Below are positions 42,190 to 48,060 of a DNA stretch of 64,000 nt, in pieces. The stretch is from Luteimonas sp. 8-5 (lineage in GTDB: Bacteria > Pseudomonadota > Gammaproteobacteria > Xanthomonadales > Xanthomonadaceae): the NCBI RefSeq assembly GCF_029763755.1, contig NZ_JARUVM010000014.1, positions 1 through 64,000 on the forward strand, read 5' to 3'. The first letter of the stretch is position 1, and each line of letters begins with the position of its first letter. The notes beneath the pieces were generated by a model. That model was not told the DNA's origin. It saw only the letters and a list, made by a program, of their open reading frames with translations, and searched no databases. The translations under genes and the position numbers were made by a program.

Positions 42190-42443
42190 ATGCGCCTGCT
42201 CCTGCAACAACGACCCGACGGCCGCGAAGCGCCCCGCTTCGTCCAGCTCATGCTCGAGCGCGACCTGCTCGGCGGCTGGACGCTGGTGCGCGAAAGCGGC
42301 CAGTCCGGCGGCAGGAGCACGGTGCGCCGCGAGCAGTTCCTCGAACAGGCCGCCGCCATGGCCGCGTTCGAACGTGCCCGCGACCTGCAACTGAAGAAAG
42401 GATTCCAGTTGATGTTCGCCCAGGGCGTCGATGCCCCCAAGTG

Positions 42444-42444
<1 letters not shown>
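42190..42444 (+). CDS. Small WGR-like domain protein
   Basis: 84-residue protein consisting of little more than a WGR-like fold: [20 protein letters not shown], then a Gly/Arg-rich turn, then [23 protein letters not shown] domains occur in PARPs and DNA-associated proteins; as a stand-alone protein its role is unknown. It begins 7 bases after aroB and its stop overlaps the hemE start, so it is expressed with aroKB-hemE. TACAAT nine bases before the ATG (overlapping the aroB end) could give it an additional promoter. Confidence 0.75.
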
Positions 42445-43544
<1,100 letters not shown>

Positions 43545-43553
43545 CGGGGCTGC

Positions 43554-44423
43554 TCAGGGTGCGACGTTGCCGTGCCCCATCGGGCAGCCGCCGATAGCGG
43601 TCCGGAAGCCCTGGACGACATTGCCGACGGCGATCACGTTGCCGCGGGCACTGCTGGTGCTGCAAACGATACCTAACTCGCCCTTGGAGACGACGACGTT
43701 GTCGCGCAGCACCAGGTCGAACGAGGTCGCGTCTACCCAGATGCCCCTGACGCCCCAGCTGTCGCCGACGTCCGGCAATCCTTCGATGCGGTTGCGGGCA
43801 ACGGTGCCTCGACCGGCTACGAGAATGCCGATCGAAAGCGGCGGCCATGCGTTGGTCCGAATACCGCTGACGACATTGTCGAGCACGTCGATCGAACCGT
43901 CCGCCGAAATCGCCTGCGGCGTCGTCTGGGGCACATCCGGCGCGTAGAGATCGAGCACCCGGTTTCGGCGAATGGTCGAACGCTCGGCCGTCATGTTGAT
44001 GCCGGAGGTAATGCTTCCCGACACTGTGTTGTCTTCCACCAGGTGGCCGCTCCCTCCGTACAGCCCGATACCGATCAGGTACCCACGGATGACGCAGTTC
44101 CGCACCGTGATGTTGTCGCCTTCATAGTCGCCCCCGGGACCGGAATAACGGATCGCAGTACCGTAGCCGCCCGCGAGATTCGCGGTACCGTCGATCAGAT
44201 GGCCCCTGCAGTCGATGGTGACATCGTCGGTGGCCACCGTGACTGCGGTCCACTCATCGGCCGTGGTGCGGATGTCATTGGCAAGGCACCATGTTCCCGG
44301 CTGGTCCGCCACTGCCGGTGCCGCGTCGATGTACGCAGTGCAACCGTCGGTACCGTCCGCCTGCGCCGGAAGCGCCAGCACGGCCAGGAGAGCGACCGCA
44401 ACCACCCGTGAGATGCCGTTCAT
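43554..44423 (-). CDS. Secreted right-handed beta-helix protein (paralogue 1)
   Basis: 289-residue exported protein: Sec signal peptide ending ALPAQA, a short N-terminal module (GCTAYIDAAPAVADQPGTWC), then a parallel beta-helix of NosD/pectate-lyase-like repeats (DDVTIDCRGHLIDGT, ITVRNCVIRGYLIGIGLYGG, STIRRNRVLDLYA). Six cysteines lie at positions equivalent in its two neighbours. No catalytic residues are identifiable, so substrate and function are unknown. Downstream of paralogue 2 by 21 bases. Confidence 0.85.
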   Translation of the reverse strand: MNGISRVVAVALLAVLALPAQADGTDGCTAYIDAAPAVADQPGTWCLANDIRTTADEWTAVTVATDDVTIDCRGHLIDGTANLAGGYGTAIRYSGPGGDYEGDNITVRNCVIRGYLIGIGLYGGSGHLVEDNTVSGSITSGINMTAERSTIRRNRVLDLYAPDVPQTTPQAISADGSIDVLDNVVSGIRTNAWPPLSIGILVAGRGTVARNRIEGLPDVGDSWGVRGIWVDATSFDLVLRDNVVVSKGELGIVCSTSSARGNVIAVGNVVQGFRTAIGGCPMGHGNVAP

Positions 44424-44444
44424 CGCTGTATCGCTCCCGCGTTC

Positions 44445-45305
44445 TTACGGATAAATCCGATTATTGATTGCAGACCCGCAGTTGTCCGGGACCGGCGCCA
44501 CGCCGATTCCGACATTGTCGATCACGTGGTTGGCGGAACTACCGACATAGTAGTTGCAGTCGAGGCTTCGGCCAGGCTCCGTGGAGATGATGACGTTGTC
44601 GCGGACGACGACATCCGCGGCACTGTTGAGCTTGATCCCCGAGCCAACCCGTGGCGGTTCGACGCCGCTTTGCGCCAGGACGATCCGGTTGCCCTTGACG
44701 GTGCCGCTCGTCGAGGACTGCATCACGATTCCCTCTGCCGCATCACTGTGCTTGTAGTTGACGAAACCGCGGATCACATTGTCGAGGACGTCGCCGCTGC
44801 CCCATACGGCGATCCCCTGGCCGCCTGTTTCGATGATGCGATTCCCCCGGACGACAGCGCGATTGCCAAATATCGCGATGCCGGTGATCAGGATATCCGT
44901 GGCAAGCAAGCCCTCGACGCGATGGCCGTTGCCCTCGAGGGAGACGCCCTCGGTGTAGCCGCGGAGCCGGCAATTCCTGACCACGGTGCGATCGTGCTGG
45001 CCGTCGCCACCCATCGACAAGACAGCGGACCGGCCCGGGTATTGCGTCCCGGTGCCGTCCATCAGGTGTCCCCGGCAGTCGATGGTCACGTCATCTGCAC
45101 GGACCCATACGCCCCAGATGCTGTCCTTGTCGGCAGGATCGCTGGCCAGGTCCGACGCCAGGCACCAGGTGCCAGGCGACGAGACCTCGATCGGCAACGC
45201 GGTGATGTAGTGGTCGCAGCCATCTCCACCGTCGGCCGCCAAGGCCGGCATTGCGGCACCGGCCAACAGGACGATGGCCGCCAGCAGCCGGAACACCGCC
45301 CTCAT
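44445..45305 (-). CDS. Secreted right-handed beta-helix protein (paralogue 2)
   Basis: 286-residue exported protein with signal peptide MRAVFRLLAAIVLLAGAAMP ending at ALAA. The N-terminal module GCDHYITALPIEVSSPGTWC and helix repeats DDVTIDCRGHLMDGT, TVVRNCRLRGYTEGVSLEG and NRAVVRGNRIIETGGQGIAV mirror paralogue 1, including the six cysteines (two in LDCNYYVG and PDNCGS). The start overlaps the paralogue 3 stop by four bases, so the three form one operon. Confidence 0.85.
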   Translation of the reverse strand: MRAVFRLLAAIVLLAGAAMPALAADGGDGCDHYITALPIEVSSPGTWCLASDLASDPADKDSIWGVWVRADDVTIDCRGHLMDGTGTQYPGRSAVLSMGGDGQHDRTVVRNCRLRGYTEGVSLEGNGHRVEGLLATDILITGIAIFGNRAVVRGNRIIETGGQGIAVWGSGDVLDNVIRGFVNYKHSDAAEGIVMQSSTSGTVKGNRIVLAQSGVEPPRVGSGIKLNSAADVVVRDNVIISTEPGRSLDCNYYVGSSANHVIDNVGIGVAPVPDNCGSAINNRIYP

Positions 45306-46165
45306 GGGCTCGGCGCCAGGTAGCTGTTGTCGCCCGCGTCCCGGCATCCGACGCTGGGGGTCGCAAAGCCCCCCACCGCATTGCCTTGCACCAGGCCTTT
45401 GGAATCCGCGCAGCGCAAGCCGATGCCCGGCCCCGCATGGGGGCCCGCAACGTCGTTCTCGCGCACGACGACCCAGCCCGGGGACGCGTTGTATATCCCG
45501 TAGGCCGAACCAGAGCCGCCCGGAACAATTTCGCGGACCCGGTTGCCGGAGATCACCCCTCCATCGTTCAAAGAGGTATCGATGCCGAAGGCGCTGCCAT
45601 TGCCTTCGCCGCCGCCGACGACGCCTGCGACCGTGTTGTCGATGATGTCCACCGATCCCTTGGTCATGATGCCCAGGGCCAGCGGCGAGAACGTGGCACC
45701 ACCCGTGTCCGATACTTCGTTGCGCTGCACGATGGAATGGTCCCCGGCGGCGTAGATTCCGACGAAGTGGTTGCCGACGACGCGATTGTCTTCGATGACG
45801 TTGCCTCGCCCGCCATCGCCGATGGCGATGACGCCGTACTGGAAGCCGGTGATGTAGCAATTCTTCACCGTCACGCCGCGCCGCGCCGACAGGTGCACGC
45901 CATGGCTGGTCACGTGGCCGCCGCCATTGCCGATGATCTTGTGCTGCGTGCAGTCCACCGTGGCGTCATCGGCCTCGACCAGGATGGCCGAGCCCAGGTT
46001 CCCCATGTAGCTGATGTCGTTGGCCAGGCACCAGGTTCCGGGCTGGTCGATCTTCGCCGGTGCGCGTTCGATGTAGCCTGTGCAGTCGGGAGCCGGTTCG
46101 GCCGCCTGCGCAGGCGCAGCCAGTGCCAGCGCCCACAGGACGACTGGAGCGAATGTCCGTAGCAT
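45302..46165 (-). CDS. Secreted right-handed beta-helix protein (paralogue 3)
   Basis: 287-residue exported protein, first of the three-gene operon. Start chosen at MLRTFAPVVLWALALAAPAQ (signal peptide) with GGAAG upstream; the longer frame adds a non-signal stretch. Module DCTGYIERAPAKIDQPGTWC, then repeats such as DDATVDCTQHKIIGN, VTVKNCYITGFQYGVIAIG, NVIEDNRVVGNHFVGIYAAG and HSIVQRNEVSDTGG. Same six-Cys pattern. Divergent from the proline iminopeptidase gene. Confidence 0.85.
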   Translation of the reverse strand: MLRTFAPVVLWALALAAPAQAAEPAPDCTGYIERAPAKIDQPGTWCLANDISYMGNLGSAILVEADDATVDCTQHKIIGNGGGHVTSHGVHLSARRGVTVKNCYITGFQYGVIAIGDGGRGNVIEDNRVVGNHFVGIYAAGDHSIVQRNEVSDTGGATFSPLALGIMTKGSVDIIDNTVAGVVGGGEGNGSAFGIDTSLNDGGVISGNRVREIVPGGSGSAYGIYNASPGWVVVRENDVAGPHAGPGIGLRCADSKGLVQGNAVGGFATPSVGCRDAGDNSYLAPSP

Positions 46166-46217
46166 CTGTGATCTTCCGTTGTTCCCCGCGTTCACTATAC
46201 CGCCGAGGCCATCCAAA

Positions 46218-47288
46218 ATGCGAGCATCCCGTGTCCGTTGCTGGTCAACCGGATTTTTCCTTTCGTTCGCCTTCGCAATTCCGGCATTCGCGCAGCAGGC
46301 GCCCGCGAACGGTTACTTCGACAACACCGGCCGCCAGGACGTCCTGTCCGGCGGCGTGCGCATGATCCCGATCACCACGCCGCAGGGCGAGTTCCGGGTG
46401 TGGACCAAGCGCGTCGGCAACAACCCGACGATCAAGGTGCTGTTGCTGCACGGCGGCCCCGGCGCCACCCACGAATATTTCGAGGGCTTCGACAGCTTCC
46501 TGCCCGGCGCCGGCGTGGAGTACTACTACTACGACCAGCTCGGCTCGGCCTACAGCGACCAGCCCGACGACATGACGCCGTTCCTGTCCATCGAGCATTA
46601 CGTCGAGGAAGTCGAGCAGGTCCGCCAGGCGTTGGGCCTGGACAACGGCAACTTCTACCTGCTGGGCAACTCCTGGGGCGGCCTGCTGGCGATCGAGTAC
46701 GCGCTCAAGTACCAGCAGCACCTCAAGGGCCTGGTGGTCTCGAACATGGTCTCCAGCATCCCGGCCTACAACCGCTATGCCGAGGAAGTGCTGATGAAGG
46801 AGATGGATCCGGCCGACCTGGCCGAGATCAAGCGCCTGGAAGCGGCGAAGCAGTACACCGATCCCAGCTACGAAAAGCTGCTGCAGCCCCACTACGAGCG
46901 CCACATCCTGCGCATGCCGTCGGAACAGTGGCCCGAGCCGGTGGTGCGCAGCTTCGCCCACATCAATCCCGAGGTGTACGTGCCGATGCAGGGCCCGAGC
47001 GAACTCGGCGCCAGCGGCATCCTGGTCGACTGGGACCGCACCGACGACCTCTCCCGCATCACCGTGCCGACACTGGTGATCGGCGCGCAGTACGACACGA
47101 TGGACCCGGCGTTCAAGCGCATGATGGCCGACCGCCTGCCCAACGGCCGCTACCTGCATTGCCCCAACGGCAGCCACCTGGCGATGTACGACGACCAGGC
47201 GGTCTACATGGAAGGCCTGATCGACTTCCTGCGCGACGTCGATGCCGGCCGCGCCATCAAGCCGGAGGCAACGGCAACGCCACGGTGA
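46218..47288 (+). CDS. Proline iminopeptidase family hydrolase (S33), exported
   Basis: 356-residue alpha/beta hydrolase with a predicted Sec signal peptide (FFLSFAFAIPAFAQ). LLLHGGPGATHEYFEGF is the S33 HGGPG oxyanion motif, GNSWGGLLAIEYALKYQQ holds the nucleophile serine, IGAQYDTMDP the Asp and CPNGSHLAMYDD the His. It would release N-terminal proline or related residues from small peptides in the periplasm. TATACC about 17 bases upstream of the leader is a candidate -10. Overlaps the histidine kinase gene by 32 bases. Confidence 0.9.
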   Translation: MRASRVRCWSTGFFLSFAFAIPAFAQQAPANGYFDNTGRQDVLSGGVRMIPITTPQGEFRVWTKRVGNNPTIKVLLLHGGPGATHEYFEGFDSFLPGAGVEYYYYDQLGSAYSDQPDDMTPFLSIEHYVEEVEQVRQALGLDNGNFYLLGNSWGGLLAIEYALKYQQHLKGLVVSNMVSSIPAYNRYAEEVLMKEMDPADLAEIKRLEAAKQYTDPSYEKLLQPHYERHILRMPSEQWPEPVVRSFAHINPEVYVPMQGPSELGASGILVDWDRTDDLSRITVPTLVIGAQYDTMDPAFKRMMADRLPNGRYLHCPNGSHLAMYDDQAVYMEGLIDFLRDVDAGRAIKPEATATPR

Positions 47289-48060
47289 ACCGGGTGCCGC
47301 GGCCGGGCGCGCTGTGCACGTCGATGCGCCCGCCCATCGCCGCGGCCAGTTCCGTGCAGATGGCCAAGCCGAGTCCGCTGCCTCCGTGGCGGGCCGTGGT
47401 ACGGGCTCCGTCTCCCTGTTCGTAGCGGCCGAAGACGCGCGCGCGCTGCACCCGGCGCAATCCGGGTCCGGTGTCGTGCACCGCCAGGCACAGCACCCCG
47501 GGCGTGGTCGGCTGGACGTACACGCGCAGGCCGACTTCACCGCGCTCGGTGAACTTGATCGCATTGCCGAGCAGGTTGAACAGCACCTGCCGGATCCGCA
47601 GCGCATCGCCGAGCACGCGCCCGGGTACGCCGTCCTCGACCGACTCCACGAAGCGCAAGCCGCGCCGCCGTGCCAATGGCGCCTGCAGCGCGCAAACACC
47701 GGCCACCAGGGCGCGCACCTCGAACGGCCGGGGATCCAGCGGCAGGCGACCCGCCTCCAGCCGGGCGATGTCGAGCGCATCGTCGAGCAGCCGCAACAGG
47801 TGGGCGCCGGCCTGGCGGATCGCCTCGGCGCGACGCCGCTGGCACGGATCCAGCGGCCCGTCGAGCAGCAGTTCGCTCATGCCCATCACGCCGGTGATCG
47901 GCGTGCGCACCTCGTGGCCGAGGTCGGCGAGGAACTGGCTGCGGTCCATGGAGGCCCGCTCGACCTCGCGGCGGCGCTCGCGCTCGCGCCATGCGGTTAC
48001 GGCCCAGTACGCGCACATCGGCACCAGCAATCCCGGCAGCATCCATGCGATCGGCGACAT
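47257..48060 (-). CDS. Orphan sensor histidine kinase
   Basis: 267-residue membrane kinase: one N-terminal helix (MLPGLLVPMCAYWAVTAW), almost no sensory domain, then HisKA with FLADLGHEVRTPITGVMGMS (phospho-acceptor H49) and HATPase with NLLGNAIKFT (N box), VHDTGPGLRRV (G1) and GGSGLGLAICTELAAAMGG (G2). It has no receiver domain and no response regulator gene nearby, so partner and signal are unknown. The start at 48060 is the first usable ATG; upstream sequence carries no other convincing start. Confidence 0.85.
   Translation of the reverse strand: MSPIAWMLPGLLVPMCAYWAVTAWRERERRREVERASMDRSQFLADLGHEVRTPITGVMGMSELLLDGPLDPCQRRRAEAIRQAGAHLLRLLDDALDIARLEAGRLPLDPRPFEVRALVAGVCALQAPLARRRGLRFVESVEDGVPGRVLGDALRIRQVLFNLLGNAIKFTERGEVGLRVYVQPTTPGVLCLAVHDTGPGLRRVQRARVFGRYEQGDGARTTARHGGSGLGLAICTELAAAMGGRIDVHSAPGRGTRFTVALPLPPA

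Follow-up and report, generated by a model that had tools for sequence, protein, structure and literature searches.

The β-helix class is used largely on polysaccharides, and its fold also serves non-glycan roles, as in NosD and in adhesins; β-helix proteins are common, and generic names tell little about what they do. In mannuronan epimerases, the catalytic motif is DPH. WceF of Pantoea stewartii is a β-helix glycosidase encoded in an exopolysaccharide cluster (PMC7949094). Here we analyse three adjacent genes, A, B and C, that encode small β-helix proteins in a window of Luteimonas sp. 8-5 (the whole 64,000-nucleotide stretch of DNA analysed). In the literature listings scanned by title and abstract opening, we recognised no description of this family or of its expansion.

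The locus and its origin

An earlier note on this DNA had described an operon of three secreted tandem paralogues, and the arrangement is borne out: three minus-strand open reading frames occupy exactly positions 43554-46165 (Table 1), the stop of A overlapping the start of B by 4 nt and B being spaced from C by 21 nt in the ORF list. The three proteins are adjacent and related (34-40% pairwise identity in a three-way alignment), and each starts with a hydrophobic, signal-peptide-like leader, read by eye, whose A-x-A end follows the usual rule for leader ends. Judged by these starts, A, B and C are probably exported.

Table 1. Features of the three-gene locus and its borders, in window coordinates
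Feature	Position	Strand	Remarks
Gene A (P0001, 287 aa), first in the trio	45302..46165	-	leader, Cys-bearing cap and β-helix
Gene B (P0002, 286 aa)	44445..45305	-	architecture as A
Gene C (P0003, 289 aa)	43554..44423	-	architecture as A
A, probable signal peptide, residues 1-21	46103..46165	-	by eye; A-x-A end; pLDDT <50 at residues 4-18
B, probable signal peptide, residues 1-23	45237..45305	-	by eye
C, probable signal peptide, residues 1-22	44358..44423	-	by eye; pLDDT <50 at residues 5-24
A, cap, Cys1-Cys2, C28 to D50	46016..46084	-	PGTWCLAND; alignment
B, cap, Cys1-Cys2, C30 to D52	45150..45218	-	PGTWCLASD; alignment
C, cap, Cys1-Cys2, C28 to D50	44274..44342	-	PGTWCLAND; alignment
hemE (name from the earlier note), left border	42441..43544	+	ORF; convergent with gene C, 9 nt away
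pip, proline iminopeptidase-like (name from the earlier note), right border	46227..47288	+	ORF, start by eye; divergent from A

The flanking ORFs, read by eye as hemE, pip, a histidine kinase and yceI, are housekeeping-like. The placement of the trio in an accessory site between hemE and pip holds up, as that site carries no family copy in a congener (tblastn); a pip homologue adjoins hemE in both G005 and G003, where the tblastn matches end 42 nt and about 190 nt apart, respectively. In the best tree, whose bootstrap had not settled and in which several rows, B included, sit on long branches, B and C are sisters (support 100/94) and A falls beside the G233 copy (93/95). The best tree does not group A, B and C as a local triplication would, yet a single common origin of the three is not rejected (p-AU 0.377). 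A search for a mobile carrier gave no match to gene C in the phage collection (50,697 records, threshold 1e-3) or in the plasmid collection, and none to A-C in PADLOC; nor did A-C match PHROGs at 0.01.

Fold and family assignment

The NosD-like helix repeats previously read from the sequence are recovered by Pfam above the gathering score in all three proteins, both for Beta_helix (PF13229; 40.5, 39.5 and 47.6 bits for A, B and C against 25.9) and for NosD (PF05048). These are generic repeat models that imply no function, and their best matching stretches begin after the N-terminal cap. AlphaFold models A (pLDDT 82.8) and C (pLDDT 80.2) as single right-handed β-helices, A with β-strands throughout in the same strand pattern as C, and C recognised as a β-helix by fold comparison against the PDB. 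For C, VIA-align returned an alginate epimerase/lyase (Z 25.1), lacto-N-biosidase (24.3), AlgE6 (24.2), an alginate lyase (24.0) and NosD (23.4); its best fold matches include GH136, DFA-IIIase and tailspikes, and the Foldseek matches include the β-helix adhesin PfbA. Because the family and fold libraries gave generic β-helix matches only, no enzyme family is assigned. No characterised lyase or epimerase family was matched at its curated cut-off.

Among these matches, NosD raises the possibility that the trio are periplasmic accessory factors for a metalloenzyme, in line with the PF05048 scores, the fold likeness of C and the best PDB profile match, which is to NosD (E 4.6e-4). We regard this as highly improbable, however, as the NosD subfamily model TIGR04247 scores 15.4, 22.3 and 14.1 bits against a cut-off of 300, and the match covers just a part of the profile, which is what shared helix repeats would produce.

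Three cysteine pairs and the N-terminal cap

A, B and C each contain exactly six cysteines, which occupy the same columns of the three-way alignment, as the earlier note had claimed. To follow them in homologues we aligned 70 full-length rows, namely the trio and 67 relatives drawn from 11 further genomes. The search profile was built from the trio, so that the set leans towards six-cysteine members. All six cysteines are kept in 69/69 in-frame rows, a pattern beyond chance. The exception, L077, is a frameshifted copy with its C-terminal part out of frame, and Cys5 and Cys6 are therefore counted over 69 rows. Cys5 occupies either of two nearby columns (42 rows versus 28).

In a wider set of 95 rows, cysteines are mostly gained or lost as the pairs 1-2, 3-4 and 5-6. 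One group of eight rows has, of the six, Cys1 and Cys2 only (seven rows with two cysteines in all and one with three), Cys3 and Cys4 are jointly absent from three rows of G309 and G306, and Cys1 and Cys2 from two rows of G069. This paired gain and loss predicts three disulfides, and each protein thus probably carries the bonds Cys1-Cys2, Cys3-Cys4 and Cys5-Cys6. The pairing pattern of the six cysteines in relatives is new here, as are the empty site in the congener described above and the findings below on the wider cap, the copy number and the sulfotransferase neighbourhoods.

The motif PGTWCLA[NS]D is common to the trio, and the module PGTWCL had been suggested to define the family, a role that the relatives do not support: its tryptophan is present in 53/70 rows, a 37-row consensus has Q in place of its proline, relatives without the other cysteines retain the cap as QG-x-YC[FL], and a distant relative has a cysteine-less cap, PGSYYL. 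In these alignments, PGTWCL is one cysteine-carrying variant of a more widespread N-terminal cap. As a DNA pattern, PGTWC has nine matches in the trio's own genome; the window's three are family members and the other six are not. One of the six, near the secretion locus of this genome, sits at the junction of a dsbC-like and an xerD-like ORF (names by eye).

A conserved scaffold with a variable helix body

The divergence of the helix proposed earlier is reflected in the mean column entropy, which is 1.44 bits for residues 25-80 against 2.29 for residues 131-220 and 2.64 for residues 221-289 of the helix body. A polar residue, Cys or Trp is carried in ≥70% of the 70 rows by 27 columns, and past residue 132 the conserved columns are asparagines 22-31 residues apart, with the exceptions of R152, T159 and Cys6.

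These columns bear on a rival reading, in which the proteins are polysaccharide lyases, epimerases or glycosidases that share one mechanism, each copy serving another substrate. Such a role would suit the fold matches to alginate epimerases/lyases, GH136, DFA-IIIase and tailspikes, the precedent of WceF as described above, and the well-kept D71 (67/70 rows), R108 (66/70) and E130 (61/70). No Asp, Glu, His, Lys, Arg or Tyr is invariant across the 70 rows, however, the kept charged residues, as neighbours of Cys3, Cys4 or the asparagine ladder, seem to be structural, and DPH occurs in just 1/70 rows; we consider a shared enzymatic mechanism unlikely.

Distribution and copy number

The family is patchily distributed yet has multiplied explosively in places, ranging from none to about 49 loci, the latter in a single 3.93-Mb genome, within one bacterial family. 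Matches at E 1e-3, weak generic β-helix matches included, were found in at least 37 of 297 genomes, and matches at E <1e-20 in at least 14, with the best 6-8 candidates scored per genome and all candidates for eight genomes; gene calls in unannotated genomes were crude ones made for this analysis. Three partial relatives lie on viral contigs. G106 harbours a large lineage-specific expansion, decayed copies included. In 22 stretches of this genome we noticed no repeated DNA peculiar to the family copies, and the longest repeats outside the family genes looked, by eye, like common GC-rich intergenic elements or other genes.

An expansion of this kind, with its decayed copies, would also fit proteins that act at the surface as adhesins, receptors or antigens and are diversified by selection for partner recognition or for avoidance of phages or predators, with no specificity for glycans. 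The likeness to PfbA fits this, as does the raised dN/dS in young pairs: 0.47-0.71 in four young G106 paralogue pairs, three of which share three genes, against 0.09-0.27 in three between-genome pairs, whose synonymous sites are near saturation. Yet dN/dS stays below 1 in 12/12 closest pairs and 8/8 part-comparisons, giving no sign of gene-wide positive selection, and the Pfam scan found no anchor or autotransporter domain in A-C, whose chains stop soon after Cys6. A role as adhesins or antigens thus appears distinctly unlikely.

Sulfotransferase and type II secretion neighbourhoods

That the copies diversify on different glycans, as the earlier note suggested, gains indirect support from five other genomes, in which sulfotransferase and, in some, glycosyltransferase (GT)-like genes lie near family copies, but not from the present genome. 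Four of these genomes belong to the bacterial family and one lies outside it, and three have their copies at a type II secretion locus: in G007, G071 and G106, the copies sit between purL and the T2SSE gene, in islands that also hold a 186-aa lipoprotein-like gene and a sulfotransferase, for which Pfam shows PF13469 in G106. Both T2SSE and T2SSF genes stand beside copies in three genomes apart from that of the trio, with GspH shown in two. The linkage in G007, G071 and G106 may be one shared ancestral event. In G160, a sulfotransferase and the 186-aa lipoprotein-like gene adjoin a family copy, and around the G357 copies lie three proteins with four PF13469 domains between them, together with a GT2-like protein and with UDP-glucose and GDP-mannose sugar genes. 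A GT2-like gene shares islands with copies and sulfotransferases in G007, G106 and G357, whereas G071 and G160 have a sulfotransferase but no GT match in view. The GT2 label is weak, as the G357 protein scores 22.8 bits where 23.3 is required and that of G007 has no match at 1e-5.

The sulfotransferase of the purL-T2SSE islands (E 1e-10) occurs in at least 4 of the 297 genomes. Each of the four is one of the 37 that have family matches, and in each the gene lies within 3.2 kb of family copies; the other 33 of the 37 lack it at this threshold among the best candidates scored (up to seven per genome). The same holds for the candidates scored in the window's genome, where purL adjoins the T2SSE gene with no family copy between them, and the queried cassette proteins have no match in the window. 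No recurring partner emerged at other sites, the commonest Pfam match among 86 neighbour proteins being TPR, with four; the survey took in 86 of 116 listed proteins and left out some others and most of those from the secretion locus, several of which were scanned separately. Co-occurrence with PF03934 (T2SSK), tried as a test of type II secretion, proved unspecific, with matches in 285/297 genomes and in Gram-positive controls. From the neighbourhoods in other genomes, we infer that family proteins may be exported by the type II route.

The islands of G007, G106 and G357, with their family, GT2-like and sulfotransferase genes, could alternatively mean that the proteins are the targets of the sulfotransferases and GT-like proteins encoded nearby, as glycoproteins, secreted or on the surface, whose β-helix is decorated before or after export. 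Heptosylated β-helical autotransporters are a precedent, and 22-29% of the residues of five relatives are Ser, Thr or Asn (17-19% in the trio). Against this, 33 of the 37 genomes lack the sulfotransferase, the sugar genes of G357 fit a polymer equally well, and no modification motif stands out on inspection of the conserved columns; we find this distinctly unlikely.

A proposed role

The explanation that we favour, tentatively and as somewhat short of probable, is that A, B and C are exported, disulfide-stapled β-helices that act on carbohydrates outside the cytoplasm, each with a varied surface. Each would be a single-domain right-handed β-helix in which Cys1-Cys2 pins the N-terminal cap, Cys3-Cys4 spans neighbouring coils and Cys5-Cys6 closes the C-terminal end. 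The scaffold of cysteines, glycines and asparagine ladder would stay fixed and the helix surface differ between copies, so that each may grip, and perhaps slowly remodel, a different polysaccharide of its own cell or of a neighbour. The disulfides, export across the outer membrane, a carbohydrate partner and a specificity particular to each copy are the parts we infer. The kept cysteines and their paired presence, the fold matches, the asparagine columns, the raised dN/dS of the young G106 pairs and the sulfotransferase islands speak for this explanation; the lack of that sulfotransferase (at E 1e-10) in the trio's genome and in 33 of the 37, the housekeeping-like neighbours and the non-glycan uses of the fold speak against it. 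In a further-reaching version, improbable in our judgement, the family would form a repertoire of disulfide-stapled mini β-helix lectins that recognise or remodel sulfated extracellular glycans. Lineages would have built up dozens of variants as copies were duplicated in tandem, dispersed and diverged rapidly at the surface, from a founding site between purL and the type II genes where sulfation genes are retained alongside.

The three predicted disulfide pairs give the family a clear and testable signature, to which come its copy-number range within one bacterial family and, in several genomes, its linkage with sulfotransferase and type II secretion genes. If copies do bind different glycans, they would offer bacteria a ready repertoire for recognition and could also supply small, stable binders; otherwise, the cysteine pairs are still a useful guide to naming the family.

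Comparison with known systems

The alginate epimerases and lyases (AlgE, AlgG, PDB 8jaz and 6kfn) are among the closest folds (VIA-align Z 22-25), but share only about 14-15% identity with the trio, and their DPH is absent in 69/70 rows. NosD (TIGR04247; PDB 7o0y) resembles the trio in fold (Z 23.4) and weakly in profile, and is set apart by score (14-22 bits against 300) and by length (286-289 aa against 377 model positions). WceF is likewise a bacterial β-helix protein; it comes from a polysaccharide locus, shows lectin-like aggregation with its polymer and differs in being a native trimer with measured activity (PMC7949094). The cysteine-poor relatives in other bacteria (G357, G613 and G625; L045) have a cap and helix as in the trio; unlike it, those of G357, G613 and G625 keep Cys1-Cys2 and lack the other cysteines and L045 has a cap without cysteine, and the G357 and G613 copies stand in tandem, as A, B and C do.

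The trio and its genomic site

The earlier note described an operon of three secreted β-helix paralogues, here A, B and C (listed in the table), each with six cysteines in equivalent places, and our alignment bears out this pattern, with exactly six cysteines per protein in equivalent columns. Genes A and B overlap by 4 bases, and 21 nt separate B from C. A scan for promoters and terminators returned a single promoter-like site, against 0.7 expected, and detected no terminator, so the operon assignment depends on gene spacing and orientation. All three proteins share the motif PGTWCLA[NS]D and carry an N-terminal hydrophobic leader with A-x-A at its end (by eye), and would presumably be exported. 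Their genes have a GC content of 64-66% and a GC3 of 79-82%, against 65-73% and 87-91% in six flanking genes, a mild shift that would be compatible with an insert but does not prove one. The flanking gene names (hemE, pip, histidine kinase, yceI) were assigned in the earlier note or by eye.

In two genomes of the same genus, hemE and pip matches (tblastn) lie 42 nt (G005) and about 190 nt (G003) apart without the family in between, while no pip match was found within the stretch read from six others (that from G006 being short). Between hemE and a histidine-kinase-like gene the genomes vary, and at this spot the trio either was inserted or has been lost elsewhere.

Coordinates of the trio, of family loci and of associated features (G, genomes compared; L, DNA stretches read from them)
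Feature	Location	Strand	Remarks
Gene A	window 45302-46165	-	ORF, 287 aa
Gene B	window 44445-45305	-	ORF, 286 aa
Gene C	window 43554-44423	-	ORF, 289 aa
hemE to histidine-kinase-like gene	window 42441-48045		content and length vary across genus genomes
G106 family loci	L066-L087 (G106 C1)		arrays of up to seven
Sulfotransferase islands, five genomes	L094 8858-13095; L066 8304-10880 + L067 1017-2467; L089 785-2064; L101 227-1365; L150 3131-7783		
G007 sulfotransferase match	L094 12286-13095		one in-frame stop (TGA)
dsbC-like gene near secretion locus	L094 18583-19497		occurs there without the family as well
G625 DsbC-like disulfide isomerase gene	L153 9086-9814		close to family copy (Pfam)
G076 relative of 186-aa lipoprotein-like protein	L098 2782-3087		about 3 kb from family copy
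G233 pair of family genes	L099 6744-8518		4-nt overlap like A/B; starts chosen by script
Partial relatives of the profile	L106, L107, L108		encoded on three viral contigs
G106 GC-rich intergenic repeats	L070 2888-3452; L078 10081-10569; L079 4604-4959		REP-like by eye; some near family genes

Fold class

Pfam Beta_helix and NosD repeats exceed the gathering score in A, B and C, and an NCBIfam repeat model is matched as well (for B slightly below the cut-off), with scores far under the cut-off for the NCBIfam NosD model. AlphaFold models of A (pLDDT 82.8, pTM 0.82) and C (pLDDT 80.2, pTM 0.82), each built from a three-sequence alignment, both display a β-helix strand pattern. Known folds were compared with the model of C only: Foldseek against the PDB gave 6 of 551 matches at E ≤0.001, all of them HK620 tailspike or AlgE4, and the 50 matches listed by VIA-align (Z 25.1 to 21.8, identity 9-16%) include alginate epimerases and lyases, phage proteins and lacto-N-biosidases, with NosD at rank 12. 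The trio is firmly predicted to belong to the β-helix fold class, which does not by itself reveal a function.

Cysteine pattern and N-terminal cap

Conservation of the six cysteines in homologues was upheld: across the trio and 67 full-length relatives from 11 other genomes, Cys1 to Cys4 occur in 70 of 70 rows and Cys5 and Cys6 in 69 of 69, leaving out one copy (L077) whose last two cysteines are accidental after a frameshift near its end. Cys3 and Cys4 are 28-38 residues apart, and Cys5 occupies either of two columns (42 vs 28 rows), a median of 22 or 15 residues upstream of Cys6. In a wider set of 95 rows, cysteine presence varies mostly pairwise. Eight rows from G613, G357 and G625 have Cys1 and Cys2 without Cys3, Cys4 and Cys6 (seven total two cysteines, one totals three); the G309 row and both G306 rows are without Cys3 and Cys4 and have the remaining four; and both G069 rows are without Cys1 and Cys2 and have Cys3, Cys4 and Cys6. 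The poorly fitting rows are those of G422 and G645, which have the cap pair, miss the others and carry additional cysteines elsewhere, and that of G751, which has a single cap cysteine. Because cysteines are mostly gained and lost in pairs, we predict disulfides 1-2, 3-4 and 5-6.

The suggestion that PGTWCL could define the family did not hold, as relatives frequently show QG-x-[WY]-C-[LF] in its place and one locus (L045, the sole GTDB locus confirmed among 88 pattern matches) has PGSYYL, with no cysteine. The stretch caps the N-terminus in a broader β-helix group, and in the family of the trio this cap carries a cysteine pair.

Distribution, expansion and divergence

A, B and C are the only family copies in their own genome, and the family occurs in 2 of 9 genomes of the genus, the other carrier being G007, with three copies at two sites distinct from that of the trio. 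Matches at E 1e-3 were obtained in 37 of the 297 genomes searched from the bacterial family, against 14 when the threshold was E <1e-20; with a fuller profile (A3, E 1e-15), matches were found in 29 of 398 genomes of an order sample (14 of the 29 from the same bacterial family, including the own genome) and in 6 of 369 of a class sample, again including the own genome. G071 has 12 matches. In G106, whose sequence forms one contig of 3,933,292 bases, there are 54, or about 49 gene loci once grouped by position. So many loci in 3.93 Mb are an unusual expansion for a bacterium. Of the G106 copies, 41 satisfy the full-length filter (median pairwise identity 38%, maximum 74%) and a stop or frameshift interrupts seven, of which L077 alone still passed the filter.

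In the 95-row tree, array neighbours are often sisters (e.g., G106 pairs in L071, L072, L073 and L076, and five of six G071 copies in L088), which indicates that local tandem duplication is common; copies of one genome are also spread over many branches (14 changes for G106). The first gene of the G233 pair clusters with A (93/95).

Most of the polar or cysteine columns conserved in ≥70% of rows are accounted for by the six cysteines, cap residues, D71, R108, R113, E130 and asparagines, the latter forming a ladder at positions 132, 154, 183, 211, 242 and 268. Mean entropy rises from 1.44 bits at residues 25-80 to 2.64 at 221-289. For the 12 closest pairs, dN/dS is 0.47-0.71 in four young G106 pairs (three drawn from the same three genes), 0.23-0.47 in five older within-genome pairs and 0.09-0.27 in three between-genome pairs, where synonymous sites are close to saturation; when cap and body of the four young pairs were compared separately, the body was not consistently the faster. 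By these estimates, the paralogues diverge fast, and gene-wide positive selection is not demonstrated in the 12 closest pairs.

Sulfotransferase and type II secretion islands

G007, G071 and G106 represent three genera; in each, family copies sit between purL and a type II secretion ATPase gene, T2SSE, which T2SSF follows (GspH demonstrated for G007 and G106). Within the genus of the window, purL directly adjoins T2SSE without a family match in the own genome, G002, G003, G005 and G008 (both genes in view), and likewise in G004 (purL end only in view); G001 and G006 had no usable T2SSE orthologue. Besides family copies, each of the three islands encodes a sulfotransferase and a lipoprotein-like product of 186 aa (lipobox by eye); those of G007 and G106 additionally have a glycosyltransferase-like gene. 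The sulfotransferase and the lipoprotein-like gene adjoin the family copy of G160 too. Around four family loci of G357, from a different bacterial family, we found three PF13469 proteins (four domains), a homologue of the G007 glycosyltransferase-like protein (51% identical; its GT2 label is weak, 22.8 bits vs a cut-off of 23.3), as well as genes of the UDP-glucose dehydrogenase and GDP-mannose dehydratase types. Over the five island genomes, the glycosyltransferase-like gene is present in three and the lipoprotein-like gene in four.

A search at E 1e-10 recovers the sulfotransferase from 4 of 297 genomes. Each of these also belongs to the 37 with family matches and has the gene ≤3.2 kb from copies; were the genomes independent, which they are not, such an overlap would have a probability of roughly 2 in 10,000 by hand arithmetic. 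At the same threshold, 33 genomes with family matches lack it, the window genome included; no sulfotransferase match was found near the family copy in the stretch read from G076, and neighbours of other family sites include no recurring partner gene.

It is in the copy-number expansion, and in the linkage to sulfation and secretion genes, that the main interest of the family lies. The analysis establishes its predicted fold class, cysteine pattern, paralogy and linkage. We take its members to be putative secreted scaffolds that would bind glycans or remodel them slowly, with specificities that may differ between copies. The family is a six-cysteine variant inside a known kind of protein, the β-helix.
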